DNA of 50,022 nucleotides from positions 1-50,022 of the forward strand of contig JAQYGS010000035.1 of NCBI GenBank assembly GCA_028722515.1. Reading direction: 5' to 3'. Numbering within the stretch: the stretch's first letter is position 1; each line of letters starts with the position of its first letter. Below are positions 8,324 through 49,970 of the stretch, one piece after another. The stretch is from Clostridia bacterium. GTDB taxonomy: Bacteria; Bacillota; Clostridia; Lachnospirales; Lachnospiraceae. The position numbers were made by a program, and so were the translations under genes. Under the pieces are notes generated by a model, which ran no database searches, had not been told where the DNA came from, and worked only from the letters and a program-made list of their open reading frames with translations.

Positions 8324-8460
8324 AGGAATCCTCCTTATTCTGTATGATGTAGAATGAATCTTTGTCATTCTATATTCATCTTACCATGTGAAGACAGTTC
8401 CCGCCATAGTTTTTTTTACCATTTTATCGATCATAAACGTTATAAAAGTTCGCCGGAATA

Positions 8461-8489
8461 TTGAGTATTAAAAGAGAAACTATTATAAT
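8461..8489 (+). promoter_or_regulatory. Sigma-A promoter upstream of the broken Rpn gene
   Basis: TTGAGT (8461-8466), a 17-base spacer and TATAAT (8484-8489). It lies about 120 bases before the remnant's start codon, in the 286-base gap between the divergent genes. Confidence 0.55.
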
Positions 8490-8609
8490 AAAGTGTGTAG
8501 AGTGTGTAACCACCTAAGATAAAATATAACATAAAGTACATGCGATAAAACCGGATATGTAAGAGGCATTCCGGGAACTGATAGAATAATATTATTTCAG
8601 GAGGGTTGC

Positions 8610-9078
8610 ATGGCAAAGGAAAACAAAAATTACAAAGACAGTGTATTTACAGATTTGTTTTATTCAGACAGGGATGCAAAGGTTAATCTGCTCAGCCTCT
8701 ATAACGCTTTGTATGGAACTTCCTACACAGATTCCAATCTGATCCGGAAAGTCCGTCTGGAGGATGTCATTTTTAAAAATTTCAAAAACGATATTGCATT
8801 TACAGTAAATCAGACAGAATATTTTAAAGGACTATCTTGAAAGAAAGTCATCGGAGGTAGTGAATATGTTGATGGTGGAATATGATTACGACACAGACAT
8901 TAAGGTACAGAGAAAAGAAGCAATGGAAGAAGGCATTCAGCAGGGCATAGAGAAAAATACTTTGGATTCAATTAAGAAAGTGATGAATTCTTTACATGTT
9001 ACTGCAGAACGTGCTATGGAGATACTGGAAATTCCCCGGAATGATTATCAGAACTACCTGCGTAAACTGCGAAAATAA
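8610..9078 (+). pseudogene. Rpn/PD-(D/E)XK nuclease family remnant
   Basis: Two pieces of one gene. The N-terminal piece (8610-8840, MAKENKNYKDSVFTDLFYSD) keeps the family start up to DVIFKNFKNDIAFTVN. The C-terminal piece, in a different frame (8860-9078), keeps EVVNMLMVEYDYDTDIK and the EGIQQGIEK helix typical of family C-termini. The middle, which should hold the D...ExQ nuclease core, is missing, and a +1 shift at about 8825 separates the parts. The ribosome binding site (AGGAGG) and a promoter survive. Loss of the catalytic core by internal deletion means it cannot cut DNA. Confidence 0.8.
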
Positions 9079-9225
9079 ATTTCAAGTGCACAGTGGAGTC
9101 AGGCAATGCGCCCGACTAAGGATGCGTAATCCGGCAGGGGAGGAACACTGTCAAATAAGCTGCTTGTCGCATCATTTGAAGCTATTATAGCTCTAGGGGG
9201 GTCAGAAAAATGTACGGTTTCCATA
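9079..9225. other. Intergenic stretch without recognisable content
   Basis: There is no gene, RNA or clear hairpin between the Rpn remnant and the transposase remnant. The GC-richer text with several stops looks like decayed coding sequence. Confidence 0.4.
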
Positions 9226-9420
9226 GACTATTTCTACAGGCTTTCAGCGCCTTTTTTACATAAGAACGGCTGAATCATCAGCTGTGCGGACCGCTATCTG
9301 AAACTGCTGTATGGCTGGATAAAAGAGGAATTCCTGAAAAGCCGGTACGTACATCCGCTGTGACGAGACCCGGATACCTTATTGGTGATAAAGAAGACAA
9401 AGAGCCTGTGGATACATATC
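9226..9420 (+). pseudogene. Degenerate IS66-like transposase fragment
   Basis: Reading with frame changes gives ISCADRYLKLLYGWIKEEFL, then KSRYVH, a frameshift, and CDETRIPYW followed by a stop. Then KSLWIH can be read. This matches the start of the IS66 TnpC DDE domain, where a helical region precedes Y-[IV]-H-x-DET and, later, a KSYMW-type strand. Stops and shifts show it is dead. No terminal repeats were found around it. The identification is by motif resemblance only. Confidence 0.55.
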
Positions 9421-9579
9421 AGCATTTTGCATCTTTTTTGATTTACTATGCCGGGCTTAACATTATGGAAACTACATCCAATCATGAAATTTTCCGGATG
9501 TCCATGCGTCTGTCGTGAGAATGCCGAATCAAACAGACCCGCAAATCCGCAGGGGTGATGGCATGTCTTCTTTACATTA

Positions 9580-9609
9580 TAGACAGATAGCAAACAAATA
9601 TGCTATAAT
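9580..9609 (+). promoter_or_regulatory. Sigma-A promoter immediately upstream of the group II intron
   Basis: TAGACA (9580-9585, five of six bases of the consensus), an 18-base spacer and a perfect TATAAT (9604-9609). The expected start site, 7-9 bases further on, falls about 2-4 bases before the intron boundary at 9620. It was probably the lepA promoter before the insertion. Confidence 0.65.
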
Positions 9610-10133
9610 ACAGAATTAGGTGCGAGCTGCGAAATCAGCATAGCTGATTTCCCCTAGCGAGCGGAAGAAATTCTGCAAGCTCTGGTAAGCTGATAACAAT
9701 ACAGTAGGAAAATCCTATCAGGTAAGGTCTAGCCAACCGCCTGTACCGAGTCCTTGGAATCGAAATGGTAACATTAGGTTTAAGCGTAGGACAGGGAGCA
9801 ACAGAGCCGAAACGAAGGTGAAGTGATTGAGCTGGGAAATTATTATGAGGTTGGAAATGGTCGATGTGTTCTTTTTCACAGCAGACAACACTGCTATAAC
9901 CGCTATGGTGAGGTTATTGTGGCATCCCCCAGTCTGAGAGCTTGGCGAGGTTGATGATAAGTATGTTATCGGAACAGCTGAGGTTCTGTCATTTCCTCGT
10001 AAGAGGTATGGAAACCAAAACAAAGAAATGCGTCAGGAATCCAAATGAACGGCAGGAAGTCCGACACAGTCATAGTATCTAAGAAGTCTGTGAAAACAGA
10101 TGGAGAAAAGGGCTGTGCACTTTATAGCTTCAA

Positions 10134-11489
10134 GTGATAAGAAACTATGCAGACGAAAGAGAGCTGATGAACATGGTGAACGAGTTGCTTGGAATACAGT
10201 ACAATATCGCAAAAGCAAACAGAACTGACAGAAAGGTTCAAAATCTTGCGTCATATATCAATGAAGATACCCTAAGAGCAGTCCATAAAACTATGGATAG
10301 AAGAAAAGCGTATGGAATTGATAAGGTGACAAAAGAAGATTATGAACAGAATCTTGAGGAAAATCTTGCGAATCTTGTAAAACGGATGAAAAGTGGAAGT
10401 TACCGTCCGAATCCAACAAGGCGAGTCTATATTCCGAAAGAAACAAAAGGCAAAATGAGACCACTGGGAATCTCCTGTTATGAGGATAAACTGGTGGAAA
10501 ATGCGATTGCACAGATACTGGAGCAGATTTACGAACCGAAGTTTTATAATGAGAGCTTTGGTTTCCGTCCAAACAGGAACTGCCATCAGGCAGTGAGGGA
10601 AATCATAGAGATGGTACAGTATCGGAAGACGAATTATGTGGTGGAAGCAGATATCAGAGGATTCTTTGATAATGTAGACCATGAATGGCTGATGAAGATG
10701 CTGCCACATGACATAGCTGACAAAAGATTTCTTGAGATAATTGAGAAATTTCTGAAAGCGGGAATCATGGAAAATGGCAAATTCCTTGACAGCGAACGGG
10801 GAACCCCACAGGGAAATGGAGCCAGTCCAATACTTGCAAATATTTATCTGCATTATGTACTGGACAACTGGTTTGATGTAATTGTAAAGAGACAATGTAA
10901 AGGCGAATGTTATCTGATTCGCTATTGCGATGATTTTGTCTGTTGTTTTCAGAACCAATATGAAGCACAGGTATTCAGGCGGAGACTGGAAGAGCGCTTT
11001 GGGAAATATGGATTGGAGCTGGCGGAGGAAAAGACGAAGATTTTGGAATTTGGGAGGTTTGCCAGGCAAAACCGAAAAGCAAGAGGAGAAAGAAAACCAG
11101 ATACCTTTGACTTCCTTGGTTTCACGTTTTATTGCGGAATGGACGGAAAGAAGCAGTTTTTCCGTTGTAGGGTAAAGACCAGTAAGAAGAAATTCCGCAG
11201 CAAAATCAAGGCAATGAAAGAATGGATAAAGGTTCACAGAGCAATGCCACTAGAGCAGTTATTCAAAACAGTCAATGCGAAACTTCGTGGGCATTACCAG
11301 TATTATGGAGTGACCGACAATACGATAGAAGTGAAGAACTTTCTGATGCAGACAAAATGGTTATTGTTTAAGTGGCTCAATCGGAGAAGTCAGAGAAGAT
11401 GTTATACGATGGATACTTTCTTTAATGGTCTACTTAGAGCTTTTCCATTACTTGAACCAAGTATCAAAGTGAGTTTGTTTTACAGATAG
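10134..11489 (+). CDS. ltrA: Group II intron reverse transcriptase/maturase
   Basis: A protein of 451 residues from GTG 10134; ATG 10167 (MNMVNELLGIQYNIAKANR) is an equally likely start, and neither has a strong ribosome binding site. RT blocks are clear: KAYGIDKVTKEDYEQN, RRVYIPKETKGKMRPLGI, ADIRGFFDNVDHEWL, GTPQGNGASPILANIYL and the catalytic YCDD (residues 264-267; YADD is more usual). A C-terminal maturase X region follows (FDFLGFTFY onward, ending LLEPSIKVSLFYR). No HNH endonuclease domain is seen after it. It would bind the unspliced intron, help splicing and prime reverse transcription during retrohoming. Confidence 0.9.
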   Translation: MIRNYADERELMNMVNELLGIQYNIAKANRTDRKVQNLASYINEDTLRAVHKTMDRRKAYGIDKVTKEDYEQNLEENLANLVKRMKSGSYRPNPTRRVYIPKETKGKMRPLGISCYEDKLVENAIAQILEQIYEPKFYNESFGFRPNRNCHQAVREIIEMVQYRKTNYVVEADIRGFFDNVDHEWLMKMLPHDIADKRFLEIIEKFLKAGIMENGKFLDSERGTPQGNGASPILANIYLHYVLDNWFDVIVKRQCKGECYLIRYCDDFVCCFQNQYEAQVFRRRLEERFGKYGLELAEEKTKILEFGRFARQNRKARGERKPDTFDFLGFTFYCGMDGKKQFFRCRVKTSKKKFRSKIKAMKEWIKVHRAMPLEQLFKTVNAKLRGHYQYYGVTDNTIEVKNFLMQTKWLLFKWLNRRSQRRCYTMDTFFNGLLRAFPLLEPSIKVSLFYR

Positions 11490-26018: not shown

Positions 26019-28412
26019 ATGAAAAAGAAAATGGTTGCTCTGATGCTGGGGCTTACTCTGTGTTTTGGGCCTGCTGCTGAAGCAGGAGCAGAAACATTTG
26101 GAACACCTGAAGATCCGGATGCAGCAGTTGTTCAGATAGCATCAGATGAGATGGAAGATGCCTTCTCAACAGGTGAACTTCAGACAGGTGAAGAAGAGGC
26201 CGGGGAGGCTCAGATAAATGAACCTGAAGCTCAGAATATAACAGAAGAACAGGGATTTTCTGCAGGAACAGAAAATTCTGTGACAGACGAAGCTGCACAG
26301 GAGCAGAATGCGGACACGGCAGATTCCATACATGTAAAGTCAGAAGACTGGGTGTCTGAGAATAATTCTTATAAGCTTCGCCGGGCTTCTTCTGTTCAGG
26401 GGACAACTCCGGGTACAGGCTCTGTGGATGGATATTATACTTTGGCAGATGGTGTTCTTAAGATTACAACACAGCATCAGGGCAGAGAATACACAGGTTA
26501 TTATCTGTTTGACGAGAACGGTTATATGGTAACAGGACAGGCAATGGTACCTCTTAAGTCGGACAGTACTGATGAAACAGAAGTGCAGGAATATTTCACT
26601 CCGATTGAAAAAGCAGTTCTTTACCCGGAATTTCAGGGAGAGGCAGTCGCTCCATATAATTCAGATCTGGGTAAGCAGAAACGGAATCAGTGGATATGGA
26701 CCGGAACAGTATTTCAGTTTTATGATGCCACCGGAGCCTTCTGCCCCGTTGAACAGCTTCAGCAGCAATATCAGCAGCAGGGCACTTATAAGGGCTATAT
26801 TAAGATTGAAAATGATTATTACTATCTTAAGGAAGACGGCACTCCGTTAACCGGAGATATTGAGATTACTGCAGGTAATGAAACAAATCTGTATTATTTT
26901 CAGCCTGAGCCGGGTAAAGATGGAATCCCGGGAAAAATGTTCCACAAAGGATGGAGATGCATAAAGACAGCTGCAGGAGAGCGATGGCTGTATTATAATC
27001 AGGGAGTTACCAATCCTTCAGATATCGGAAAATATTATAAGAGAGGAATCACGGCAACTGTACTTGATAAGAAAATCAAAGGAAATGATACATATTTAAT
27101 TGATTCTAAGGGTTATATCCTGAAGAATACAATGAAGAAGGCTGCCAATGGTGCATACTACTGTACAGACAAACGAGGTGTAATTTATAAAAATAAACTG
27201 GTGAAGTACTCAGGCGCCAGATATTATTTTGACTCCAAGGGAAAGAGAGCTGCATGGCAGAACAGATGGGCGAAATGTACAGGGGCAGGAAACCATTATT
27301 ATTATTTTGGAAAAACTCCTGGGAAAGTCTCCGAGAAAAAAGGATGGCAGAAGGTTTGCGATCCAAACGGAAAATTTATCGGATGGTATTATTTTGATTC
27401 CAATGGAAACCATTATACAAATAAGCTTACTTCAGAAGGTTATTATTTTACACCTGATGGAAAACTGGCCAGTGGGTTGCAGACGATAAAAGGAAAGAAA
27501 TATATTTTTGAAACATCCACTTCCTCAGAACGTAAAGGAAAAATGTATAAAAATAATATGGTACGTTATAAAAAGAAGTGGTATTTTGCATCAAAAAGCG
27601 GACCTCTTATTAAAAGCGGGTGGAAGAATTATAACGGAAACTGGTATTATATTAAAAATTATGAAGTTCTTACTAACAGCTTCATAAAGAGAAACGGTGT
27701 CAATGGATATGTAGATTCTAAAGGAAAATATACAACCGGATGGGTTGTTGTAAGCAATGCCCAGAATCTTGTCCGTTATATAAATCCAGATGGAAAAGGC
27801 AAAGCTAAAGACGGATACGTAAGAAATGACAGCAAGATCATAGATGGAACCCGGTATTTCTTTGATAAAAATGGTTACAGAATTACAGATCTGACAAGCA
27901 GATTCACAGGTCCATACTTTATACGGGTTGACAAAACAAATGGAGTTGCAACAGTATATACAGACAGCACCATGGTTACACCTGTCAAGACTATTCGTGT
28001 TTCTGTAGGACTTCCAGGTACGCCAACCCCGGATGGATATTATAAACTGAAAAGTGAATACAGATGGCAGCCTCTTATGGGACCTTCCTGGGGACAGTAC
28101 GGAACTCATGTGGAAGGCGCCGGACAGGGAGGAATCTATTTCCATTCTGTAGCATGCTCTCAGCCTAATTCTTATAATCTTCCTTCTGGAGAATATAATA
28201 AACTGGGCAGTCCGGCATCTCATGGATGTATTCGGACCTGTGTGGCTGATGCCAAATGGATTTATGAGCACTGCAATGGAGCAACCGTTTATATAATGAG
28301 CGGCCCATATATCAGTGAAGACGTATTTAAAGGACCTCTTGGGAAGAAGCCGCTGACACCTCTGCGTGGATCTGGAAGATTTGACCCGACAGACCCGGCA
28401 GTAAATCAATAA
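26019..28412 (+). CDS. Secreted L,D-transpeptidase (YkuD) with wall-binding repeats
   Basis: A protein of 797 residues. A signal peptide (MKKKMVALMLGLTLCFG...AGAETF) is followed by an acidic low-complexity linker (35-125). Many choline/glucan-binding-type repeats rich in Trp, Tyr and Gly come next (about 130-620; for example GWYYFDSNGN, GTRYFFDKNGY). The C-terminal YkuD domain (about 625-765) carries HSVA and the catalytic SPASHGCIRT with His735 and Cys737. It would form 3-3 cross-links or attach proteins to peptidoglycan outside the cell, with the repeats holding it to the wall. Start ATG 26019 follows AAGGGGAG. Confidence 0.92.
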   Translation: MKKKMVALMLGLTLCFGPAAEAGAETFGTPEDPDAAVVQIASDEMEDAFSTGELQTGEEEAGEAQINEPEAQNITEEQGFSAGTENSVTDEAAQEQNADTADSIHVKSEDWVSENNSYKLRRASSVQGTTPGTGSVDGYYTLADGVLKITTQHQGREYTGYYLFDENGYMVTGQAMVPLKSDSTDETEVQEYFTPIEKAVLYPEFQGEAVAPYNSDLGKQKRNQWIWTGTVFQFYDATGAFCPVEQLQQQYQQQGTYKGYIKIENDYYYLKEDGTPLTGDIEITAGNETNLYYFQPEPGKDGIPGKMFHKGWRCIKTAAGERWLYYNQGVTNPSDIGKYYKRGITATVLDKKIKGNDTYLIDSKGYILKNTMKKAANGAYYCTDKRGVIYKNKLVKYSGARYYFDSKGKRAAWQNRWAKCTGAGNHYYYFGKTPGKVSEKKGWQKVCDPNGKFIGWYYFDSNGNHYTNKLTSEGYYFTPDGKLASGLQTIKGKKYIFETSTSSERKGKMYKNNMVRYKKKWYFASKSGPLIKSGWKNYNGNWYYIKNYEVLTNSFIKRNGVNGYVDSKGKYTTGWVVVSNAQNLVRYINPDGKGKAKDGYVRNDSKIIDGTRYFFDKNGYRITDLTSRFTGPYFIRVDKTNGVATVYTDSTMVTPVKTIRVSVGLPGTPTPDGYYKLKSEYRWQPLMGPSWGQYGTHVEGAGQGGIYFHSVACSQPNSYNLPSGEYNKLGSPASHGCIRTCVADAKWIYEHCNGATVYIMSGPYISEDVFKGPLGKKPLTPLRGSGRFDPTDPAVNQ

Positions 28413-28422
28413 ACAGATAAGA

Positions 28423-28450
28423 AGCGCTCTGGATTCTTTTTCAGGGCGCT
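28423..28450 (+). terminator. Weak hairpin after the YkuD gene
   Basis: AGCGCTCTG and CAGGGCGCT form a nine-base stem (one G-U) around GATTCTTTTT. No T run follows, so termination is probably partial, or this is an mRNA-end structure. Confidence 0.4.
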
Positions 28451-28476
28451 AATTATTAGTATTATGGGAGAAAAAT

Positions 28477-29895
28477 ATGATGAAAAATAAAAGAAAACCG
28501 ACAGGATGGTCATCTGTTATAAAATTGGTGCTGGGGATATTTATTGGATGCCTGGTTATGTTTTCAGTGCCTGTTTTGGCAAATCAGCATTATGACCGTC
28601 GTCTGACAGTAGCTGAGGAAGAGCAGCAGGCTCCTGCTTTTGCATCGGCTTTTTCATCAGGATCAGAAAGTGAAACCAGTACAGTTAACAAGAATGCATG
28701 GAAAAAGATCAAAGGAGTCTGTTATAACGGAAGCGGTGTAAAAATACCCGGAGCCATTACAAGAGGAATTGATGTTTCCGAATGGCAGGAAAAAATAGAC
28801 TGGAAAAAAGTAAAAAGTGCAGGAATTGATTTTGCATTCGTACGTGTGGCTCATGGCCTGAAACATTTGGATACATATTATGATTATAATATGAAAAAAG
28901 CAGAGGAAGCCGGTGTGCCGGTGGGAACCTATATATACAGTACTGCAACCTCAACAAAGGATGCATTGAAGGAAGCACAGCTTGTGATCAAAAAAATGAA
29001 GGGGTATAAAGTATCATACCCTGTGGTTTATGACCTGGAATATCCAGGCGCACAGAAGCTTTCTTCCACCGCAAGATCAAAAATGGCTCTTACATTCTGT
29101 AATGAAGTACGCAAGGCAGGATATTATCCAATGATCTACTGCAATACATACTGGTATGATAACTATATAGACTGGGAGATTTTGTCCGGTATTGATGTGT
29201 GGATCGCAAGGTACGGAGATACCATACAGGCACCTGTAGTTTCGAAATATGAATATACCATATGGCAGGCTACAGATGGAAACACAGAAAATGGTCTTAA
29301 CAGTACAAGAGGTCTGATACCGGGAATTCCTTCTGGCAATGATGTGGATATTAATTTTGGCTATGTGGATTATACAAAAAAAATAACACCACGCTTTAAT
29401 GCAAAGTCTTCTTATGTCCCCTCATCCAAGCCGGACAGCACTGAAAATAAGGAACCCCAGAATCAGAAATCAGGATGGCAGACAGAAAATGGTAATACAT
29501 ATTATTATGTTAATAACAGAAAAGTGACAGGTCTGCAGAAAATTAAAGAAAAACTGTATTATTTTAATGAAAAAACCGGGATCTTGTATAAAAATGAGAA
29601 GATTATCACTTCAAAAGGAGATATTTATTATGCGAATTCCAAAGGGGTCTGCTATAATAATGGTTTCCAGAAAATAAAAGAAAGTGGAACATCACATACA
29701 TATTACTTCCAGAAAAATGGAAAAGCTTATAAAGGATGGTTGACACTGAATGGTAAAAAGTATTATTTTTATAAAGGTCAGTCAAAAATGTCCGGTATCA
29801 GGGCAGAAAACATTACACTTACAAGTTCCAAAAATGTGGTATCGGTATTTGACAAAAATGGTGTATGCATAAAACAGACAACACTGAAAAAATAA
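28477..29895 (+). CDS. Secreted GH25 muramidase with wall-binding repeats
   Basis: A protein of 472 residues (ATGATG start; the second ATG is possible). A membrane/signal segment at residues 12-32 ends near VLANQ. The GH25 lysozyme domain (about 90-290) has RGIDVSEWQEKIDW with Asp99 and YPVVYDLEY with Asp186 and Glu188, the expected catalytic acids, and WQATDG near its end. The C-terminal part (about 320-460) has wall-binding repeats (GKAYKGWLTLNGKKYYFYKG). It would cleave the N-acetylmuramic acid linkage in peptidoglycan during remodelling. It shares its repeat type with the upstream YkuD protein. Confidence 0.92.
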   Translation: MMKNKRKPTGWSSVIKLVLGIFIGCLVMFSVPVLANQHYDRRLTVAEEEQQAPAFASAFSSGSESETSTVNKNAWKKIKGVCYNGSGVKIPGAITRGIDVSEWQEKIDWKKVKSAGIDFAFVRVAHGLKHLDTYYDYNMKKAEEAGVPVGTYIYSTATSTKDALKEAQLVIKKMKGYKVSYPVVYDLEYPGAQKLSSTARSKMALTFCNEVRKAGYYPMIYCNTYWYDNYIDWEILSGIDVWIARYGDTIQAPVVSKYEYTIWQATDGNTENGLNSTRGLIPGIPSGNDVDINFGYVDYTKKITPRFNAKSSYVPSSKPDSTENKEPQNQKSGWQTENGNTYYYVNNRKVTGLQKIKEKLYYFNEKTGILYKNEKIITSKGDIYYANSKGVCYNNGFQKIKESGTSHTYYFQKNGKAYKGWLTLNGKKYYFYKGQSKMSGIRAENITLTSSKNVVSVFDKNGVCIKQTTLKK

Positions 29896-40273: not shown

Positions 40274-41542
40274 TCAGGATTTAATTATTCTGATCATTTT
40301 CCAGATAAGCAACAGAAGAATAATAAAGCCTATTGCACCAATCACGTAGAATGGCTCCTTCGAATGAGACTCGGAAAACTCTTTGGCCTCTTGCATATTG
40401 GAAGCACCTTGTTTTGTTATTTCATCATTATCTTCTGTAATTGAGTCAACCTGAGAGGTTCCTACAGGGGCTCCATTGAAAAAATACTGACGATCCGTAT
40501 AATCCTGTCCCTGGGAATCCTGAAAGGTCAGGGCATCTGCTGTGGTACCGGAAGGAACCATCACCGTTCCACCGGATAGGATATCAAAATCATTCTTGCT
40601 CAGATCAAGCTTCTGAAAATTTCCAAATCCATAATCCAGAAGGGTAACTGCTTCCGGGTCAGTCTGATCTGCTGCACCCTTTAATACTACGCAGATAAGG
40701 GTTGTGCCATTTCTCTGAGCAGCACATACGAGAGTACTGCCTGAATCATTGGTGTAACTTTCCTTACCTCCGATACATCCCTCATAATATACGGGGGATG
40801 TGTTATTTGTCATAGCAAAGGAACTTGTCAGTGAACGTATACCACCGGATACATTTGTGGCCGGAATGGTATAGGTGGAAGCACCGGCTATGGTGCGAAA
40901 TGTTTCGTTACTGATGGCTGCCTTCATGATCAGTGCCATATCGTGTGCGGTGGTATGCTGATTTGTGTCCGGTAATCCTGTGGGATTGGTAAATACAGTG
41001 TTAGTACATCCAAGCTGTGAAGCACGTTCATTCATCTGAGCCACAAAGGCGTCTACAGATCCACTTACGTGTTCAGCTACCTGAAGAGCAATATCATTTG
41101 CAGAGGCGAGCATCATTGCGTAAAGACATTGTTCCATAGTAAATGTTTCGTCCAGCTGTGCAGAAATGCTGGCACCTCCGTCTGTTACACCGGATACGCC
41201 GGTTTCGGTCATAGTAACCTGGTCCGTAAGCTGGCTGTTTTCCAGCGCAAGAAGACAAGTCATTATTTTAACCGTTCCGGCAGGATACTGAATCTGGTCC
41301 ATATCTTTTGCATAAAGAACAGTATCTGTGGATTCCTCCATAACAACAGCAGACTGAGAGGTAATCTCCGGCCCCTGAGGCCATCCGTCTATGGAATTGG
41401 TTGAAATTTGGGCAGGAACTGCTTCCTGACTGGCTGCGGCAGGATCCTCTGTCTGTTCCTCTCCATATGCCGGGATATTAAAAAGTAAACACAGACAAAT
41501 TCCTGCTGCCAGAGCTGCTCCTTTTAATTTTCTTTTTTTCAT
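40274..41542 (-). CDS. DacF-like D,D-carboxypeptidase homologue with substituted active site
   Basis: A protein of 422 residues from ATG 41542. It has a signal peptide (MKKRKLKGAALAAGICLCLLF...AYGEEQ), a peptidase S11/PBP5-type domain and a C-terminal membrane anchor (VIGAIGFIILLLLIWKMI). The fold is clear, with an intact SAN at 147-149 and the long VFTNPTGLPDTNQHTTAHDMA stretch in two halves. However, the SxxK motif reads GTVK (Gly89 instead of Ser, Lys92 kept) and KTG reads KES (260-262). The nucleophile is therefore missing and penicillin or D-Ala-D-Ala cleavage is not expected. It is probably a wall-binding or regulatory pseudoenzyme. The ribosome binding site AGGAGC is about 12 bases upstream. 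It lies antisense within the glycan locus. Confidence 0.85.
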   Translation of the reverse strand: MKKRKLKGAALAAGICLCLLFNIPAYGEEQTEDPAAASQEAVPAQISTNSIDGWPQGPEITSQSAVVMEESTDTVLYAKDMDQIQYPAGTVKIMTCLLALENSQLTDQVTMTETGVSGVTDGGASISAQLDETFTMEQCLYAMMLASANDIALQVAEHVSGSVDAFVAQMNERASQLGCTNTVFTNPTGLPDTNQHTTAHDMALIMKAAISNETFRTIAGASTYTIPATNVSGGIRSLTSSFAMTNNTSPVYYEGCIGGKESYTNDSGSTLVCAAQRNGTTLICVVLKGAADQTDPEAVTLLDYGFGNFQKLDLSKNDFDILSGGTVMVPSGTTADALTFQDSQGQDYTDRQYFFNGAPVGTSQVDSITEDNDEITKQGASNMQEAKEFSESHSKEPFYVIGAIGFIILLLLIWKMIRIIKS

Positions 41543-41588: not shown

Positions 41589-41618
41589 AGTATAACACAT
41601 TTGTACTCTTTCTTGCAA
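41589..41618 (-). promoter_or_regulatory. Promoter of the DacF-like gene
   Basis: On the reverse strand TTGCAA (41613-41618), an 18-base spacer and TATACT (41589-41594), 47 bases before the start codon. Confidence 0.6.
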
Positions 41619-41641
41619 AAAAAATGGTACAATGTTAAAAT
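41613..41641 (+). promoter_or_regulatory. Promoter of the second glycosyltransferase operon
   Basis: TTGCAA (41613-41618), a 17-base spacer and TAAAAT (41636-41641). The same self-complementary TTGCAA also serves the divergent promoter. A further TATAAT lies at 41660-41665 without a good -35. Confidence 0.55.
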
Positions 41642-41678: not shown

Positions 41679-43541
41679 ATGAGTAAAGGTGATTCCGCGG
41701 GAAATAAAATACAATGGGGAAGACTTTTGAAAAAACTGTCACCCTATACAATTCAGAAAGGACTGCGTTATCTCAAACATTACGGACCTTCCGAGTTTTG
41801 GGTACGTCTCCATGAACGCTTTGAGCCGGAAGAGATTCCCTATGGACCCTGGTATGAAACGTATGCTCCAACTAAGGAAGTACTTGACAAGCAGAAGAAG
41901 CACAGGTTCAAGAATGGTCCTTTATTCAGTATTGTGGTTCCGGCTTACAGAACACCTGAATTATTTTTAAGACAGATGATGGATTCTCTTATAAACCAGA
42001 CTTATGGAAACTGGGAATTATGCCTGGCCAATGCAAGTCCAGAGGATCTTAAGATGAATAGAATTCTGGAAGATTATAAAAAAAGAGACAGCCGGATCCA
42101 TATCATGAATCTTAAGGAAAATCTTGGTATTGCAGAGAATACAAACTGCGCTCTTTCTATGGCAAAGGGAGATTTTGTGGGTTTTCTGGATCATGACGAT
42201 CTGCTGGCACCTGATGCACTCTATGAGATTGCTCTGGCAGCAGAAGAGAATCCACTGGCTGATGTGATCTATACAGATGAGGATAAGGTAACTACAGATC
42301 TTTCCGAGCATTTTCAACCACATTTTAAACCGGATTTTAATCTGGATCTTCTTCGTTCCAATAATTATATCTGCCACTTTTTTACTGTGCGCCGTAAGAT
42401 TGCAGAGGAAGTGGGAGGTTTCAGGAAAGAATTTGACGGGGCTCAGGATTATGACTTTATATTTCGATGTGTGGAAAAGGCCAGGTCTGTTGCCCATGTA
42501 CCGAAGATCCTCTATCACTGGAGAACTCACAAGTCTTCTACTGCAGATAACCCTGCAAGTAAAATGTATGCTTTTGAAGCAGGAAAGCGGGCTATTGAGG
42601 GAAATCTTAAGAGATCCGGAACAGAAGGAACCGTAGAATGCACAAAAGACCTGGGATTTTACAGGGTGAAATACCCGGTGAAGGGTCAGCCGCTTGTTTC
42701 AGTGATCATACCCAACAGAGAGGAAAAAGATACACTTAAGTCATGTCTGGAATCTGTTCTTGAGAAAACCACATACCAGAATTATGAAATTATCATTGTA
42801 GAAAATAACAGCAGTTCAGAGGAAATATTTAACTATTACAGGGAAATTTCCCAAAATCCCAGGATCCGTCTGGTTCGCTGGAAGAAAGAATTTAATTATT
42901 CTGCCATTAATAATTTCGGAGTAAAAAGTGCAAAAGGAGAGTATCTTCTGTTTCTGAATAATGATGTGACAGTGATTGATCCTGACTGGATGAGTGAACT
43001 TCTTGGGGTATGTCAGAGAGAAGAAGTGGGAGCGGCAGGAGTCAAGCTTCTTTATCCTGATGACACCATTCAACATGCAGGATGTGTGGTGGGAATGGGA
43101 GGCATTGCCGGAAATCTGTTTGTAAATATGCCGTCCAATCGTACCGGATACCTGCATAAGGCATCACTTCTTCAGGATATGAGTGCAGTAACTGCCGCCT
43201 GTATGATGATGAAAAAAAGCGTATTTGAACAGGCAGGCGGTTTTACAGAGGAACTTGCCGTAGCTTTTAACGATGTGGACCTCTGCCTGAAAGTCAGAAG
43301 CCATGGACATCTGATCGTTTATGACCCTTATGCCAGACTATACCATTATGAGTCCAAATCAAGGGGAGCGGAAGACAGCAAAGAAAAGGTCAGGCGTTTT
43401 CAGTCTGAGATTGAATATATGAGGTGCCACTGGCCGGAGATCCTTAAAAACGGAGATCCATACTATAATAAAAATCTTTCCCTCACGAAATGGAATTATT
43501 CTCTGAAGCCTTTGCCGGGAATGGGAAAGAAGAAGGGATAA
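41679..43541 (+). CDS. Two-domain GT2 glycosyltransferase
   Basis: A protein of 620 residues. A short N-terminal part (KYLKHYGPSEFWVRLHERFE-like) leads to GT2 domain one (about 85-330; FSIVVPAYRTPELFL, DFVGFLDHDDLL, HFQPHFKPDFNLDLL) and domain two (about 345-590; VSVIIPNREEKDTL, YLLFLNNDVTV, SAVTAACMMMKK). It shares long stretches with the enzyme at 37760 (DGAQDYDFIFRCVE, LYHYESKSRG), so the two are paralogues that differ by the N-terminal beta domains. It probably adds sugars, perhaps rhamnose, to the growing lipid-linked chain. GGAG lies 7 bases before ATG. Confidence 0.9.
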   Translation: MSKGDSAGNKIQWGRLLKKLSPYTIQKGLRYLKHYGPSEFWVRLHERFEPEEIPYGPWYETYAPTKEVLDKQKKHRFKNGPLFSIVVPAYRTPELFLRQMMDSLINQTYGNWELCLANASPEDLKMNRILEDYKKRDSRIHIMNLKENLGIAENTNCALSMAKGDFVGFLDHDDLLAPDALYEIALAAEENPLADVIYTDEDKVTTDLSEHFQPHFKPDFNLDLLRSNNYICHFFTVRRKIAEEVGGFRKEFDGAQDYDFIFRCVEKARSVAHVPKILYHWRTHKSSTADNPASKMYAFEAGKRAIEGNLKRSGTEGTVECTKDLGFYRVKYPVKGQPLVSVIIPNREEKDTLKSCLESVLEKTTYQNYEIIIVENNSSSEEIFNYYREISQNPRIRLVRWKKEFNYSAINNFGVKSAKGEYLLFLNNDVTVIDPDWMSELLGVCQREEVGAAGVKLLYPDDTIQHAGCVVGMGGIAGNLFVNMPSNRTGYLHKASLLQDMSAVTAACMMMKKSVFEQAGGFTEELAVAFNDVDLCLKVRSHGHLIVYDPYARLYHYESKSRGAEDSKEKVRRFQSEIEYMRCHWPEILKNGDPYYNKNLSLTKWNYSLKPLPGMGKKKG

Positions 43542-43544
43542 AGA

Positions 43545-44501
43545 ATGCAGGAAGTATCAGTCATAATTCCTAATTTTAACGGGAAACCTTACCTGGAAGG
43601 TGTTCTGAGAAGCCTGGAACATCAGAGTACAGATAATTTCGAGGTGATTCTGGTTGACAATGGATCCAGTGACGGAAGCTGTGAATACGTGTCACAGTTT
43701 TTCCCATGGGTTCGCCTGATCAGGCTGTCTGAGAATTTTGGCTTCTGCCGGGCAGTTAATGAGGGAATTAAAGCATCAGGCTCCCCTTATGTCCTTCTTT
43801 TGAATAATGACATTGAGGCTGATGAGTATTTTATTGAAGAAATGACAGCCTCCATTAAACGTCATAAAAAAGCTTTTTCCTGTGCTGCAAAAATGATTCA
43901 GTTTCACGACAGAACCAGGCTGGATGATGCAGGTAATTATTACTGTGCTCTTGGATGGGCTTTTGCAAGAGGAAAGGGTAAAGATATTCATTCTTATAAA
44001 AAAGAAGAAAAAATATTTTCTGCCTGTGCGGGAGCTGCTATATACAGAAGGGAAATTCTTGACAGGATCGGTTATTTTGATGAGGAACATTTTGCTTATC
44101 TGGAAGATATGGACATAGGATACAGGGCAAGAATCTTCGGATATGAGAACTGGTATGCTCCGAAAGCAGTCGTGTATCATATAGGAAGCGGAACAACTGG
44201 TTCCAGATATAACCAGTTTAAGATCCGTTACTCTTCCAGAAATAACATCTATATGCTGTATAAAAATATGCCGTTTCTGCAGCTTATTCTTAATCTTCCT
44301 TTTATTATTGCAGGGTTTGGGATTAAAATATTGTTTTTTGCATCGAAAGGCTTTGGAAGAGAATATCTTGCAGGAATTAAAAATGGCTTTCAGATCAGCC
44401 AAAAAAACAGAAAAGTACCTTTCAGGTTCCGGTACTTATTCAACTATGTAAAGATCCAGCTTGAATTATGGATCAATATATTACGGCGTTTCTTTGGCTG
44501 A
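43545..44501 (+). CDS. GT2 family glycosyltransferase (WbbL-like)
   Basis: A protein of 318 residues. A GT2 fold: VSVIIPNFNGKPYLEGVLRSL, ILVDNGSSDGS, VLLLNNDIEADEYF and AYLEDMDIGYRAR. The C-terminus has a hydrophobic segment (MPFLQLILNLPFIIAGFGIKILFFA) and a basic tail, so it associates with the membrane. It resembles the rhamnosyltransferases that add the first rhamnose to a lipid-linked sugar (WbbL/RfbF type). It begins 3 bases after the preceding gene. Confidence 0.9.
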   Translation: MQEVSVIIPNFNGKPYLEGVLRSLEHQSTDNFEVILVDNGSSDGSCEYVSQFFPWVRLIRLSENFGFCRAVNEGIKASGSPYVLLLNNDIEADEYFIEEMTASIKRHKKAFSCAAKMIQFHDRTRLDDAGNYYCALGWAFARGKGKDIHSYKKEEKIFSACAGAAIYRREILDRIGYFDEEHFAYLEDMDIGYRARIFGYENWYAPKAVVYHIGSGTTGSRYNQFKIRYSSRNNIYMLYKNMPFLQLILNLPFIIAGFGIKILFFASKGFGREYLAGIKNGFQISQKNRKVPFRFRYLFNYVKIQLELWINILRRFFG

Positions 44502-44574: not shown

Positions 44575-44613
44575 ATAAAGGCAATGAAAAAATGAGGTGA
44601 CAAGGGATTGTTA

Positions 44614-46011
44614 ATGGACAATGAGAAAAATTTCGGTCGTCTCCATATGCTTATCGATGCGATCGTGCTTGCATTGTCATATGTTCTTGCATGGATGATC
44701 CGTTTTGTGGGTCCTATGTCTTCGACTGCTGTAAGAACCAGAAGCTTTGAGCAGTATATGATGATGCTGATCTTTATTATACCTCTCTACCTGCTTTTGT
44801 ATCAGGCCTTTACATTGTATACTCCTATGAGGATGCAGGGACGCCGCCTTGTGCTGGCAAATATTGTGAAAGCCAACACGCTTGGGCTTCTTATTCTAAT
44901 GTTTACATTTTATATGGTGGATGAAGGAGACTATTCCAGGTTCACTTATATTATGTTCTATGGAATAAATATCATTCTGCAGTGGGGAACACGGATGCTC
45001 ATATTTGCAATTCTCAAAAATATGAGAGAGCATGGGCTGAATCAGAAGCAGTTAATCTGTGTAGGCTACAGCAGGGCAGCAGAGGAGTATATCGATCGAG
45101 TACTTGCGAATCCCCAATGGGGTTATGTGATCAGAGGAATATTGGATGATAATGTACCGGCTGGTACTGAATATAAGGGAATCAAGGTAATAGGCAGAAT
45201 TGCAAATCTGAACGTGATCCTGCCGGCCAATCGTCTGGATGAGATTGCCATCACGCTTGGGCTCAGTGAATATTACCGTCTGGAGGAAATCGTAGCCTTG
45301 TGTGAAAAGTCCGGAGTACACACGAAATTTATACCGGATTATAATAAGATCATTCCAACGAAACCATATACGGAGGATATCCTGGGACTTCCTGTGATCA
45401 ATATCCGCTATGTTCCTCTGAACAATACGTTTAACGCACTTGTGAAGAGAACTATGGATATTGTGGGATCGATCATAGGTATAATTGTTACATCGCCTTT
45501 GATGCTTCTGATGTGTATTCTCATAAAGCTCACATCACCCGGTCCCCTGATCTATAAGCAGGAAAGAGTGGGACTTCATAATAAAACATTCTGGATGTAT
45601 AAATTCCGTTCTATGGAAGTGCAGCCTGAATCAGAAGAGAAGAAAGCCTGGACAGTTAAGAATGACCCAAGAGTGACAGGAATTGGAAAGTTTATGCGTC
45701 ATACCAGCATAGATGAGCTCCCTCAGCTGTTTAACATTCTGAAAGGTAATATGAGTCTGGTGGGGCCAAGGCCTGAAAGGCCTTTCTTTGTGGAGAAGTT
45801 CAGGGAGGAGATCCCCAGATATATGGTCAAGCATCAGGTACGCCCAGGTCTGACCGGGTGGGCACAGGTGAATGGATACCGTGGAGATACTTCTATCAGA
45901 AAAAGAATAGAATATGATCTGTATTATATAGAAAACTGGAGTATAGGACTGGACATCAAGATCATATTGTTAACGTTCTTCAAGGGATTTATTAATAAAA
46001 ATGCATATTAG
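44614..46011 (+). CDS. Polyprenyl-phosphate sugar phosphotransferase (WbaP/EpsE type)
   Basis: A protein of 465 residues from ATG 44614 (TTG 44608 is also possible; AGGTGA and AAGGGA lie upstream). Four or five N-terminal membrane helices (1-130), a CoA-binding-like Rossmann region (145-260), then a membrane re-entrant helix and the catalytic sugar transferase domain: KRTMDIVGSIIGIIVTSP, YKQERVGLHNKTFWMYKFRSM, HTSIDELPQLFNILKGNMSLVGPRPE and PGLTGWAQVNGYRG. It transfers a sugar-1-phosphate to undecaprenyl phosphate, the committed first step for this polysaccharide. The LCP gene follows after 15 bases. Confidence 0.93.
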   Translation: MDNEKNFGRLHMLIDAIVLALSYVLAWMIRFVGPMSSTAVRTRSFEQYMMMLIFIIPLYLLLYQAFTLYTPMRMQGRRLVLANIVKANTLGLLILMFTFYMVDEGDYSRFTYIMFYGINIILQWGTRMLIFAILKNMREHGLNQKQLICVGYSRAAEEYIDRVLANPQWGYVIRGILDDNVPAGTEYKGIKVIGRIANLNVILPANRLDEIAITLGLSEYYRLEEIVALCEKSGVHTKFIPDYNKIIPTKPYTEDILGLPVINIRYVPLNNTFNALVKRTMDIVGSIIGIIVTSPLMLLMCILIKLTSPGPLIYKQERVGLHNKTFWMYKFRSMEVQPESEEKKAWTVKNDPRVTGIGKFMRHTSIDELPQLFNILKGNMSLVGPRPERPFFVEKFREEIPRYMVKHQVRPGLTGWAQVNGYRGDTSIRKRIEYDLYYIENWSIGLDIKIILLTFFKGFINKNAY

Positions 46012-46026: not shown

Positions 46027-47451
46027 ATGTCTAAACCAGGTAAAAAGAAAAAGAAAGTATTGTTTGTTGTTGAAATTGTAGTGCTTTTACTGTTTATCGG
46101 CGGATTGTATGCGTATGGACAGATTTCATCCAAACTGGACAAGATTGAACAGCCTGAACTGGATGAGCAGAAAATTTATGTTAATGCAGAAGCTCCCTCA
46201 GTGACGGGGTATTCTACCTATGTCCTGTTTGGTATAGACACCAGAGGAGCAGGATCACAGTATTCTGCCAAGAACAGTGATACCATGATTATTGTTAGCG
46301 TTAACAATGATACAAAAGAAGTAAAAATGGCATCTGTTTACAGAGATACTCTTCTTAATGTTGGAAACGATACCTATACCAAAGCTAATGCTGCATATGC
46401 TTACGGTGGTCCTGAGCAGGCTATTTCTATGTTGAATACCAATCTTGACCTGAATATCACAGATTATGCCACTGCGGATTTTTCAGCACTTGTAGAAGTG
46501 GTAGATGAACTTGGCGGTCTTGATATTCCCTTATCTTATGCGGAAATAGAACATATGAATAATTACTGTCAGGAAACTTCCAAGGTAACGGGAAAGGATT
46601 ATACTCCTGTCGAGAAGCCTGATCCTGCACCTGCAGATCAGGAAGCAATTATCGGGACATATCATCTGAATGGTGTACAGGTTACATCCTATTGCCGTAT
46701 CCGTTACACCGCAAGTCTGGATATGGGCCGTACTGAGCGCCAGAGAAAGGTCCTTGGCATGCTTTTTGACAAAGCGAAAAAAGCCGGTTTATCCTCCATT
46801 TTCAATATAATGGATAAAGTATTCCCTATGGTTCAGACTTCACTGTCCAAGCAGGAGATTTTGAAGCTGATTCCAACGATGATAGGATATAAATTTGGAG
46901 ATACAACAGGATTTCCGTCTCAATATAAGTTCTCCAACGTAAAGGGAAGCATAATTGTACCGACTACATTGGAAAGTAACGTTGCAGAGCTCCATAAATT
47001 TCTATACAATGATATGAATTATACGCCTTCTTCCGAGATAACTGCCCGCAGTGAGAAAATTCTGGAAATTGTAGGAGGAGAAGGAAAGCTGGATGATGCA
47101 GCAGCAAATACTTCCCAGAATGACGGAACGGATAACGCTGATGATACCTTTATCTGGTCTGAAAATACAGAATCAGACGCAGGAACGGATGATTATTATT
47201 CAGAAAGCAGTGATACCGGATACACTGGCGGCAATGATAACGATTATGATGATACCGTAGATACTGGAGATACGGGAGATACTGGCTACGATGATACCGG
47301 GGACAGCGGTTATGATGATACCGTAGATACGGGAGATACCGGAGATACAGGGGACATTGGCTATGATGACACCGGGGACACCGGAGATACTGGTTATGAT
47401 GATACTGGAGATACGGGAGAAGATTTTGTCGATAGTGCTGTTGAGGAATAA
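46027..47451 (+). CDS. LytR-CpsA-Psr (LCP) family glycan ligase with Asp/Thr/Gly repeat tail
   Basis: A protein of 474 residues. A basic start and a membrane anchor (VLFVVEIVVLLLFIGGLYAYG, read in parts, residues 10-32) precede the LCP domain (about 60-300): LFGIDTRG, NSDTMIIVSVN, SVYRDTLLNV, NAAYAYGGPEQAISMLN, VDELGGLDIPL, and RIRYTASLDMGRTERQRKVL with the conserved Arg residues. LCP enzymes move undecaprenyl-linked polymers onto peptidoglycan outside the cell; here the likely cargo is the locus polysaccharide. The last 70 residues (about 395-465) are near-perfect repeats of YDDTGDTGDTG, strongly acidic. Confidence 0.92.
   Translation: MSKPGKKKKKVLFVVEIVVLLLFIGGLYAYGQISSKLDKIEQPELDEQKIYVNAEAPSVTGYSTYVLFGIDTRGAGSQYSAKNSDTMIIVSVNNDTKEVKMASVYRDTLLNVGNDTYTKANAAYAYGGPEQAISMLNTNLDLNITDYATADFSALVEVVDELGGLDIPLSYAEIEHMNNYCQETSKVTGKDYTPVEKPDPAPADQEAIIGTYHLNGVQVTSYCRIRYTASLDMGRTERQRKVLGMLFDKAKKAGLSSIFNIMDKVFPMVQTSLSKQEILKLIPTMIGYKFGDTTGFPSQYKFSNVKGSIIVPTTLESNVAELHKFLYNDMNYTPSSEITARSEKILEIVGGEGKLDDAAANTSQNDGTDNADDTFIWSENTESDAGTDDYYSESSDTGYTGGNDNDYDDTVDTGDTGDTGYDDTGDSGYDDTVDTGDTGDTGDIGYDDTGDTGDTGYDDTGDTGEDFVDSAVEE
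47211..47425 (+). repeat. Imperfect tandem repeat encoding DTG/YDD units
   Basis: Repeats of GATACxGGxGAxAC with interspersed TAT/TACGATGAT encode YDDTGDTGDTG-type units. Codons for the same residues vary between units (GAT/GAC, GGA/GGG), so the repeat is older than a recent slippage event. Confidence 0.8.
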
Positions 47452-47505: not shown

Positions 47506-47527
47506 TACCAGAGGGAGTATATTGGAT

Positions 47528-48451
47528 ATGGAAAAAACCAGGGTGGATGTAATCATTCCCACATACAGGCCGGGCAAAGAGTTTCCAACTTTGCTGAAAA
47601 GACTGCAGGAGCAGGAATGCAGACCCGACAGGATCATTGTTATGAACACAGAAAAAAAATACTGGAAAAAAGAGTGGGAAGTAATCCCGAATCTGGAAGT
47701 ACATCATCTGGAACGGAAGGAATTTGACCATGGAGGAACCAGAAGAAAAGCTTCCTGTTTATCCGATGCTGATATTATGGTTTTTATGACTCAGGATGCA
47801 CTTCCGGCAGACAGAAGTCTGATCGGTAATCTAATACAGCCATTTGTTGAAAATAAAAATATAGGGGCGTCTTATGCAAGACAGCTTCCTTTACCTGACT
47901 GTGGTTATCTGGAACGTTATACAAGGTCTTTTAATTATCCGGAAAAATCTGTTGTAAAGACATCTGAAGATATGGAAAAACTGGGGATTAAGACATTCTT
48001 TTGCTCAAATGTCTGCGCAGCTTATGATAAAAAAATATATGAAAAAACCGGTGGATTTCCGGAACGTGCAATTTTTAATGAGGATATGATATGTGCAGGA
48101 AGAATGATTAAAGCAGGTTATGCGGTTTCTTATACAGCACAGGCCAGAGTGTATCATTCTCATAATTATACCGGGATACAGCAGTTTCACAGAAATTTTG
48201 ACCTGGGTGTATCACAGGCAGAGAATCCGGAAATATTTGATGGTGTACCCTCTGAAAAGGAAGGAATCCGCCTTGTTAAAAGAAGCATATCATATCTTGC
48301 CAGAACAGGCCATATATGGCTGATTCCCAGACTGATCTGGCAGAGTGCCGCCAAATATGCAGGCTATTTTCTTGGAAAGAGATTTAGAAAACTTCCCCAA
48401 AGAGCTGTCCTTGCCTGTACAATGAATAAAGAATACTGGAACGGTAACTGA
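47528..48451 (+). CDS. GT2 family glycosyltransferase (rhamnosyltransferase-like)
   Basis: A protein of 307 residues. ATG 47528 is favoured, with AGAGGGAG 10 bases upstream; TTG 47522 is possible. GT2 motifs: VDVIIPTYRPGKEFPTLL, RIIVMNTEKKYW, DHGGTRRKAS (the DHGGTR stretch is typical of RfbF/RgpB-type rhamnosyltransferases), MVFMTQDALPAD (in place of DxD) and NEDMICAGRMIKAGY. It is soluble or peripheral with a basic C-terminus. It lies downstream of the LCP terminator, so it may be a separate transcription unit or depend on readthrough, but it belongs functionally to the glycan locus. Confidence 0.88.
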   Translation: MEKTRVDVIIPTYRPGKEFPTLLKRLQEQECRPDRIIVMNTEKKYWKKEWEVIPNLEVHHLERKEFDHGGTRRKASCLSDADIMVFMTQDALPADRSLIGNLIQPFVENKNIGASYARQLPLPDCGYLERYTRSFNYPEKSVVKTSEDMEKLGIKTFFCSNVCAAYDKKIYEKTGGFPERAIFNEDMICAGRMIKAGYAVSYTAQARVYHSHNYTGIQQFHRNFDLGVSQAENPEIFDGVPSEKEGIRLVKRSISYLARTGHIWLIPRLIWQSAAKYAGYFLGKRFRKLPQRAVLACTMNKEYWNGN

Positions 48452-48548: not shown

Positions 48549-49970
48549 ATGAATGATGAAATAAATAGAAACCAGAATCAGGAAGATCCTGATCCTCACA
48601 TTCCAGAGCAGATTTCACCAAGATACGAGCATTATCAGCTTCGTCAGGAACAGGATTCTTCTTTTCAAAAAATACCGGAGAAAGAAACCCATACCGGTTT
48701 TGGAAAAAAGATAGGAATGACTATACTTCTGGCTGTTATTTTCGGATTTGTGGCTGGCACTGTTTTTCTTGGAATAAATATGATTGCCGGAAGATTTACC
48801 GGTGGTAATGCCCAGATTGGCATTACACAGAGTGTAACAGAAAATAATGCTTCAGAAGGGACGGAAGTTAAATCCATACAGGATACAGTACAGGAGAATG
48901 GAACTGTAGCTGCAGTTGCACAGGCAACCATGCCTTCAGTGGTAGCCATAACATCCGTCAGTATTCAGAAAATTCCCAGTTTCTTTGGCTATGGCACAAG
49001 ACAGTATACCAGCGCTGGCAGTGGTTCCGGAATTATTGTGGGAGAAAATGACAAAGAACTTCTGATTGCCACAAACAATCATGTGGTAGAAGGTTCTTCT
49101 ACTCTAAGCGTATGTTTTATTGGAAATGATGTTGTAAATGCGGAAGAAGAGACCAGGAATCTTGTCAGTCAGGATGGGGATCTTAATATTGAAGATGCTG
49201 TTACTGCACAGATAAAAGGTACAGATCAGGAGAATGATCTGGCTGTAGTTGCAGTTCAGAAATCAGATATTCCACAGGATACTCTGAACCAGATAAAAAT
49301 AGCGAAAATTGGTAATTCAGATGATCTTGCAGTTGGAGAGCAGGTAGTTGCAATCGGTAATGCACTTGGATATGGACAGTCAGTTACTTCCGGCTGGATA
49401 AGTGCATTGAACAGGACTATCACCACAGATGACGGTGCAAGTAGTTCCGACCTTATTCAGACAGATGCAGCCATTAATCCGGGTAACAGTGGAGGAGCAC
49501 TTCTGAACCTGAAAGGAGAGCTCATTGGAATCAATTCTGCTAAATATGCAGATAATGCTGTGGAGGGAATGGGTTATGCCATTCCTATTTCCAAGGCACA
49601 GCCCATACTGGAAGATCTAATGAACCGACAGACAAGGGAAAAAGTGAAAGATGATAAAAAGGGCTATCTGGGAGTAAGTCTTGCCAATCTTACTTCTGAG
49701 GCAATACAGATGTATAATATGCCTTCCGGGGCTTTTATAAGAGGAGTGGATGAAGATACTCCTGCAGAGAAGGCCGGATTGTGCAAAGGAGATATCATTG
49801 TAAAGTTTGACGGACAGAAAGTAAGTGACAGTGATAGTCTTCTTACTCTCCTTCAGTATTATAAAGCCGGAGAATCTGTGAATGTGGAAGTTGCCAGACT
49901 TGATAACGGAGAATATGAAGAAAAAACTTTACAGGTTGTTCTTGGACTCAGACCTGAGACAGGGCAGTAA
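48549..49970 (+). CDS. htrA: HtrA/DegP-like membrane-anchored serine protease
   Basis: A protein of 473 residues. A long polar cytosolic N-terminus (1-55), one membrane helix (IGMTILLAVIFGFVAGTVFL), then a trypsin-like domain with His178 (TNNHVVEG), Asp230 (ENDLAVV) and Ser314 (NPGNSGGALL), and a C-terminal PDZ domain (about 370-465; GYLGVSLANLTSE...GAFIRGVDEDTPAEKAGLCKGDIIVKFDG). It is expected to degrade or refold misfolded proteins at the outer face of the membrane. The ribosome site is GAAGGGA, 9 bases before ATG. A terminator follows. No CssRS-type regulator is in view. Confidence 0.95.
   Translation: MNDEINRNQNQEDPDPHIPEQISPRYEHYQLRQEQDSSFQKIPEKETHTGFGKKIGMTILLAVIFGFVAGTVFLGINMIAGRFTGGNAQIGITQSVTENNASEGTEVKSIQDTVQENGTVAAVAQATMPSVVAITSVSIQKIPSFFGYGTRQYTSAGSGSGIIVGENDKELLIATNNHVVEGSSTLSVCFIGNDVVNAEEETRNLVSQDGDLNIEDAVTAQIKGTDQENDLAVVAVQKSDIPQDTLNQIKIAKIGNSDDLAVGEQVVAIGNALGYGQSVTSGWISALNRTITTDDGASSSDLIQTDAAINPGNSGGALLNLKGELIGINSAKYADNAVEGMGYAIPISKAQPILEDLMNRQTREKVKDDKKGYLGVSLANLTSEAIQMYNMPSGAFIRGVDEDTPAEKAGLCKGDIIVKFDGQKVSDSDSLLTLLQYYKAGESVNVEVARLDNGEYEEKTLQVVLGLRPETGQ

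Follow-up and report, generated by a model that had tools for sequence, protein, structure and literature searches.

A genus-wide, probably non-catalytic S11 pseudoenzyme of Blautia encoded back-to-back with a glycan operon

What is a D,D-carboxypeptidase-like protein kept for once its catalytic nucleophile has gone? The question is raised by a minus-strand gene of the window, the whole stretch of 50,022 nucleotides that was analysed. The gene and the relevant parts of its product are the following:

40274..41542, minus strand: pseudo-D,D-carboxypeptidase gene, 422 aa, Peptidase_S11 fold (ORF, Pfam, AlphaFold2, Foldseek); ATG at 41542, stop codon at 40274-40276
41462..41542, minus strand: N-terminal signal-peptide-like segment, residues 1 to ~27, MKKRKLKGAALAAGICLCLLFNIPAYGEE; helix 2-20 in the AlphaFold2 model
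41267..41278, minus strand: degenerate SxxK, G89-T-V-K92, nucleophile gone and Lys retained (codon 89 is GGA)
41096..41104, minus strand: SAN motif, residues 147-149, intact (58/58 orthologues)
40757..40765, minus strand: degenerate KTG, K260-E261-S262 (Glu261 in 52/58 orthologues, Thr in 0/58)
40280..40357, minus strand: C-terminal hydrophobic helix, residues 396-421 (AlphaFold2), predicted transmembrane anchor, PFYVIGAIGFIILLLLIWKMIRIIKS

The protein matches Peptidase_S11 (PF00768) with E=6e-45 and 154 bits (cut-off 27.6), and its AlphaFold2 model (mean pLDDT 91.9) has B. subtilis DacB (3mfd, E=1.4e-25) as top Foldseek match, with PBP5, PBP6 and other S11 structures also retrieved. By homology, in both profile and predicted fold, it is a member of the S11 family. 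A strand-rich region (321-366) is present in the model, and no PBP5_C domain (PF07943) was matched by Pfam in the protein at E<=0.001. The protein is predicted to be exported and tethered to the membrane through its C-terminal helix. With the low-molecular-mass S11 PBPs (DacB, E. coli PBP5 and PBP6, M. tuberculosis Rv2911 and Rv3330, Streptomyces K15) it shares the fold, the SxxK lysine, SAN and, as predicted, export and anchoring, whereas it differs from them in lacking the Ser nucleophile, in having KES for KTG, in the missing PBP5_C match and in its single hydrophobic C-terminal helix.

The register of the motifs is unambiguous, as PAGTVKIMT of the window protein aligns with PASxTKIMT of paralogues in the same genome, which encodes five further S11 proteins, every one with Ser and KTG. 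GTVK (Gly89, GGA), SAN and KES are exactly as the sequence-only reading had reported them. Among the motifs that define a functional D,D-carboxypeptidase or PBP, SxN is present as SAN, the Ser-bearing SxxK has become GTVK, and the place of KTG or KSG is taken by KES in the window and by KEG, REG or RES in its clade. Because two defining motifs fail, the protein should not be annotated as a D,D-carboxypeptidase or PBP; annotation pipelines will label it so, probably wrongly. In known enzymes the KTG threonine contacts the substrate carboxylate. Catalytic inactivity is likely by analogy with E. coli PBP5, since there the same Ser-to-Gly change (S44G) leaves a protein that neither binds penicillin nor acts as a carboxypeptidase and that is also dispersed from septa (PMC2909392). 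That engineered mutant retains KTG, whereas the Blautia form is natural, genus-wide and selected, and its KTG is remodelled.

A strong orthologue match was found in 60 of the 64 Blautia genomes, including all 34 of high quality, and the named records holding orthologues 56-67% identical to the window protein are mostly Blautia, which places the window in Blautia or very near it. Fifty-nine Blautia loci were fetched and their proteins aligned; once the tandem KTG copies and two forms with KSG were excluded, 58 proteins remained, referred to here as the degenerate clade. The KTG threonine is absent from every one of them (Glu in 52, Gln in 2, others in 4). At position 89 only Ser (39), Gly (12) and Ala (7) occur, so that the nucleophile is replaced in 19/58, and this limitation to small residues suggests that the volume of the cleft has been kept. 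Lys92, S147, A148 and N149 are invariant (58/58), and V91, T188, Q195 and E261 are new, near-fixed residues of the clade. For comparison, 113 S11 proteins that do not belong to the clade were taken, most of them from other Lachnospiraceae genera: Ser is present in 111 of the 112 that could be scored, and Glu at the KTG threonine position in none of these 112. In the alignment of homologues, proposed earlier as a check on the conservation of G89 and KES, Glu261 is found in 52/58 and Gly89 in 12/58, against 39/58 with Ser.

The gene is under strong purifying selection across Blautia, with dN/dS of 0.02-0.07 in the domain for close pairs (Nei-Gojobori), and pairs without Ser are as low as pairs with it. 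Loss of catalytic residues is thus combined with a fold conserved under purifying selection, which is what distinguishes a pseudoenzyme, and the earlier view that the nucleophile and KTG chemistry were lost while selection kept the fold holds. With the motif columns left out of the tree building, the Ser/non-Ser trait requires 10 changes on the best tree, counted without direction, and six independent contrasts lie on well-supported branches. Most of the changes read as losses, because practically all outgroups have Ser. The window protein groups with four Ser-bearing sequences (SH-aLRT 96), and its own loss of Ser was therefore a separate event. The independent contrasts were too few to show whether Ser loss goes with K260R or with a change at G262.

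Possible intermediates are still found. In two Blautia genomes (L154 and L155) a KTG copy comes immediately after a KSG copy, at 9208-10428 and 7923-9149 respectively in L154; in another locus (L158) a Ser-less copy adjoins a KTG copy. In two loci of sister type from other genera (L054 and L056) the same operon is flanked by an S11 gene on the opposite strand, with Ser retained and KTG or KPG. The KSG forms already carry Thr188 and Gln195, without Val91 or Glu261, which suggests that the outer cleft changed first, then Thr91 and KTG, and finally Ser. The classic PBP5 Ser-to-Gly mutant has apparently been repeated many times by nature in a common gut genus, with the stepwise intermediates extant.

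The genomic setting is also conserved, and its elements in the window are the following:

41589..41594, minus strand: TG-extended -10 box TATACT of the promoter facing the pseudo-D,D-carboxypeptidase gene (sequence pattern)
41613..41618, no strand assigned: palindromic TTGCAA, putative -35 box common to both divergent promoters (sequence pattern, conserved across loci)
41636..41641, plus strand: TG-extended -10 box TAAAAT of the promoter facing the glycosyltransferase operon (sequence pattern)
41679..43541, plus strand: two-domain GT2 glycosyltransferase, divergent neighbour and first gene of the conserved operon (Pfam; adjacency in 51/53 loci)
43545..44501, plus strand: GT2 glycosyltransferase, conserved operon (Pfam, synteny)
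44608..46011, plus strand: undecaprenyl-phosphate sugar-1-phosphate transferase (Bac_transf), conserved operon (Pfam, synteny)
46027..47451, plus strand: LytR-CpsA-Psr (LCP) glycopolymer ligase, conserved operon (Pfam, synteny)
47522..48451, plus strand: GT2-type glycosyltransferase, conserved operon (Pfam, synteny)
48549..49970, plus strand: HtrA-like trypsin-PDZ protease, with which the conserved block usually ends (Pfam, synteny)

Of the 53 loci that could be scored, 51 have the gene head-to-head with the equivalent of the first glycosyltransferase; of the remaining two, one is an artefact of overlapping ORFs and one has an inserted ORF. On its other side the genes vary between species, so the stable link is to the GT/LCP operon only. 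A strict search for back-to-back promoters with a single TTGCAA as -35 box and an extended -10 (TG) on either side recovered 30 of 59 Blautia loci, where dinucleotide shuffles gave 0.07 on average, a comparison that speaks for non-randomness and not for the number of origins, as related loci are not independent; the strict pattern was not found in the other 29. The shared promoter is put forward as a sequence pattern, and if both promoters are real, the polymerase would be able to occupy just one direction at a time. The gene was not lost after the loss of Ser, and members with and without it have the same synteny and promoter. The description of the gene as embedded in a glycan locus is refined accordingly: it sits at the edge of the conserved operon, with a variable far side, and the divergent synteny and shared promoter make the glycan link much stronger than was visible from the window alone.

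We consider it probable that the protein is a genus-wide Blautia pseudoenzyme acting as a non-catalytic partner of the glycan machinery at the outer face of the membrane, a reading favoured because its gene is fixed beside, and promoter-coupled to, the glycan/LCP operon. The proposed ancestor is a catalytically active S11 D,D-carboxypeptidase whose gene lay next to the wall-glycan operon before it was duplicated in tandem. The cleft of one copy would then have been remodelled, with residue 188 becoming Thr, 195 Gln, Thr91 Val and the KTG threonine mostly Glu, and once catalysis had become dispensable, Gly or Ala could have replaced the nucleophile by drift on many occasions. The present protein would be expressed from a back-to-back promoter shared with the glycosyltransferase/LCP operon, exported, tethered by its C-terminal helix, and might, for example, dock or gate ligation by the LCP protein at nascent peptidoglycan. 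The partner role is suggested by synteny and promoter sharing, and contact with the LCP ligase is a guess. An assembly role, which had been proposed before, or a partner-binding one is possible. Residual or altered activity may persist in the Ser-bearing species, as Ser, Lys and SAN occur together in 39/58.

More tentatively, the PBP fold may have been neofunctionalised, its remodelled cleft (Val91, Thr188, Gln195, Glu261, Lys92 and SAN) binding a new ligand, such as a wall glycan or a lipid-linked precursor, and so gating LCP attachment in Blautia. Somewhat less probable is that the enzyme is changed and not dead, the Ser-bearing KEG form being a hydrolase or transferase on a different substrate and only the Ser-less lineages, that of the window included, having since become inactive; the substrate might, for example, lack a free C-terminal carboxylate, or be an ester on the glycan. 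The joint presence of Ser, Lys and SAN in those 39 proteins would fit, as would the strong conservation of Glu261, Thr188 and Gln195, which resembles a retuned pocket. However, dN/dS, synteny and promoter are the same with and without Ser and the gene is kept after its loss, so the selected function seems independent of the nucleophile.

It is rather improbable that the cleft simply holds pentapeptide stems or lipid II without cutting them, as the muropeptide-binding idea of the sequence-only reading would have it. The invariant Lys92 and SAN, and the small residues at position 89 that leave the cleft open, are what such a binder would need, and a place in the pathway is offered by an S. aureus LCP ligase for which lipid II is the acceptor (PMC6441080). 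Yet Glu replaces the threonine that contacts the carboxylate in known enzymes, which makes direct pentapeptide binding by the window protein less likely, and in E. coli PBP5 S44G septal localisation is lost, which the authors of that work interpreted as a failure to interact with the substrate (PMC2909392); the plain form of the idea is weakened by both. Finally, an isolated point mutation, a sequencing error or a decaying pseudogene is very improbable: the window genome is a draft (83.6% complete, 5.0% contamination, 256 contigs) and the closest relatives of the protein bear Ser, but the gene is retained genus-wide with intact frames and dN/dS far below 1, the related Ser codons are AGC or AGT (48/49), two changes away from GGA, and Gly or Ala has arisen independently in other Blautia, including a single-contig genome (G314) and isolate contigs, so that a sequencing error is unlikely. 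Ser-bearing homologues had been named in advance as pointing to a point mutation; they do exist, in 39/58, and they do not rescue that reading, because the KTG threonine is lost in 58/58 and replacements of Ser are numerous.

Three further candidates were rejected. T90 is unlikely to be a substitute nucleophile, as Ser-less orthologues often have Ala there (GAVK, AAVK). A register-shifted Ser88 occurs in only 4 of the 19 Ser-less orthologues, the window protein having Ala88, and a mobile or phage origin of the gene found no relative among viral contigs.

Both wall amidases and LytM peptidases have inactive relatives that are known to act as regulators. Degenerate LytM factors such as Caulobacter DipM are likewise inactive wall-peptidase relatives kept as non-enzymatic factors, whereas they have an unrelated metallo-endopeptidase fold and regulate autolysins, the genomic link in Blautia being to glycan assembly (PMC10336132). 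For the S. aureus capsule, which is attached by an LCP ligase (LcpC) with lipid II as acceptor, glycosyltransferases, sugar-phosphate transferase and LCP ligase are grouped as in Blautia, and glycan attachment and peptidoglycan precursors therefore meet at that step; the abstract on that system mentions no S11 pseudoenzyme, whereas the Blautia one appears to share the promoter of the operon (PMC6441080). A limited literature search found no natural conserved S11 pseudoenzyme described, which is weak evidence of absence. The locus opens a testable question, the coordination of glycan attachment with peptidoglycan in commensal Clostridia.

Some minor observations were made elsewhere. In the window, a minus-strand ORF of 541 aa (6743-8368), for which Pfam gave nothing at E<=1e-4, adjoins an AAA-ATPase and acyltransferase cluster, and a group II intron reverse transcriptase/maturase (10134-11489) lies just upstream of lepA. 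Two adjacent choline-binding-repeat proteins, a YkuD L,D-transpeptidase and a GH25 muramidase, are encoded at 26019-29895, adjacent to RmlC and the Wzm/Wzt glycan export genes. In other Lachnospiraceae, S11 proteins with intact Ser carry KPG or KNG for KTG (L009, L056, L028, L174, L063, L065 and L066). In a different genus, a Ser-less S11 protein with GLTK, SYN and KTT (L166, G026:C36:37916-39508) is found in tandem with an intact copy (L011), and is possibly an independent pseudoenzyme.
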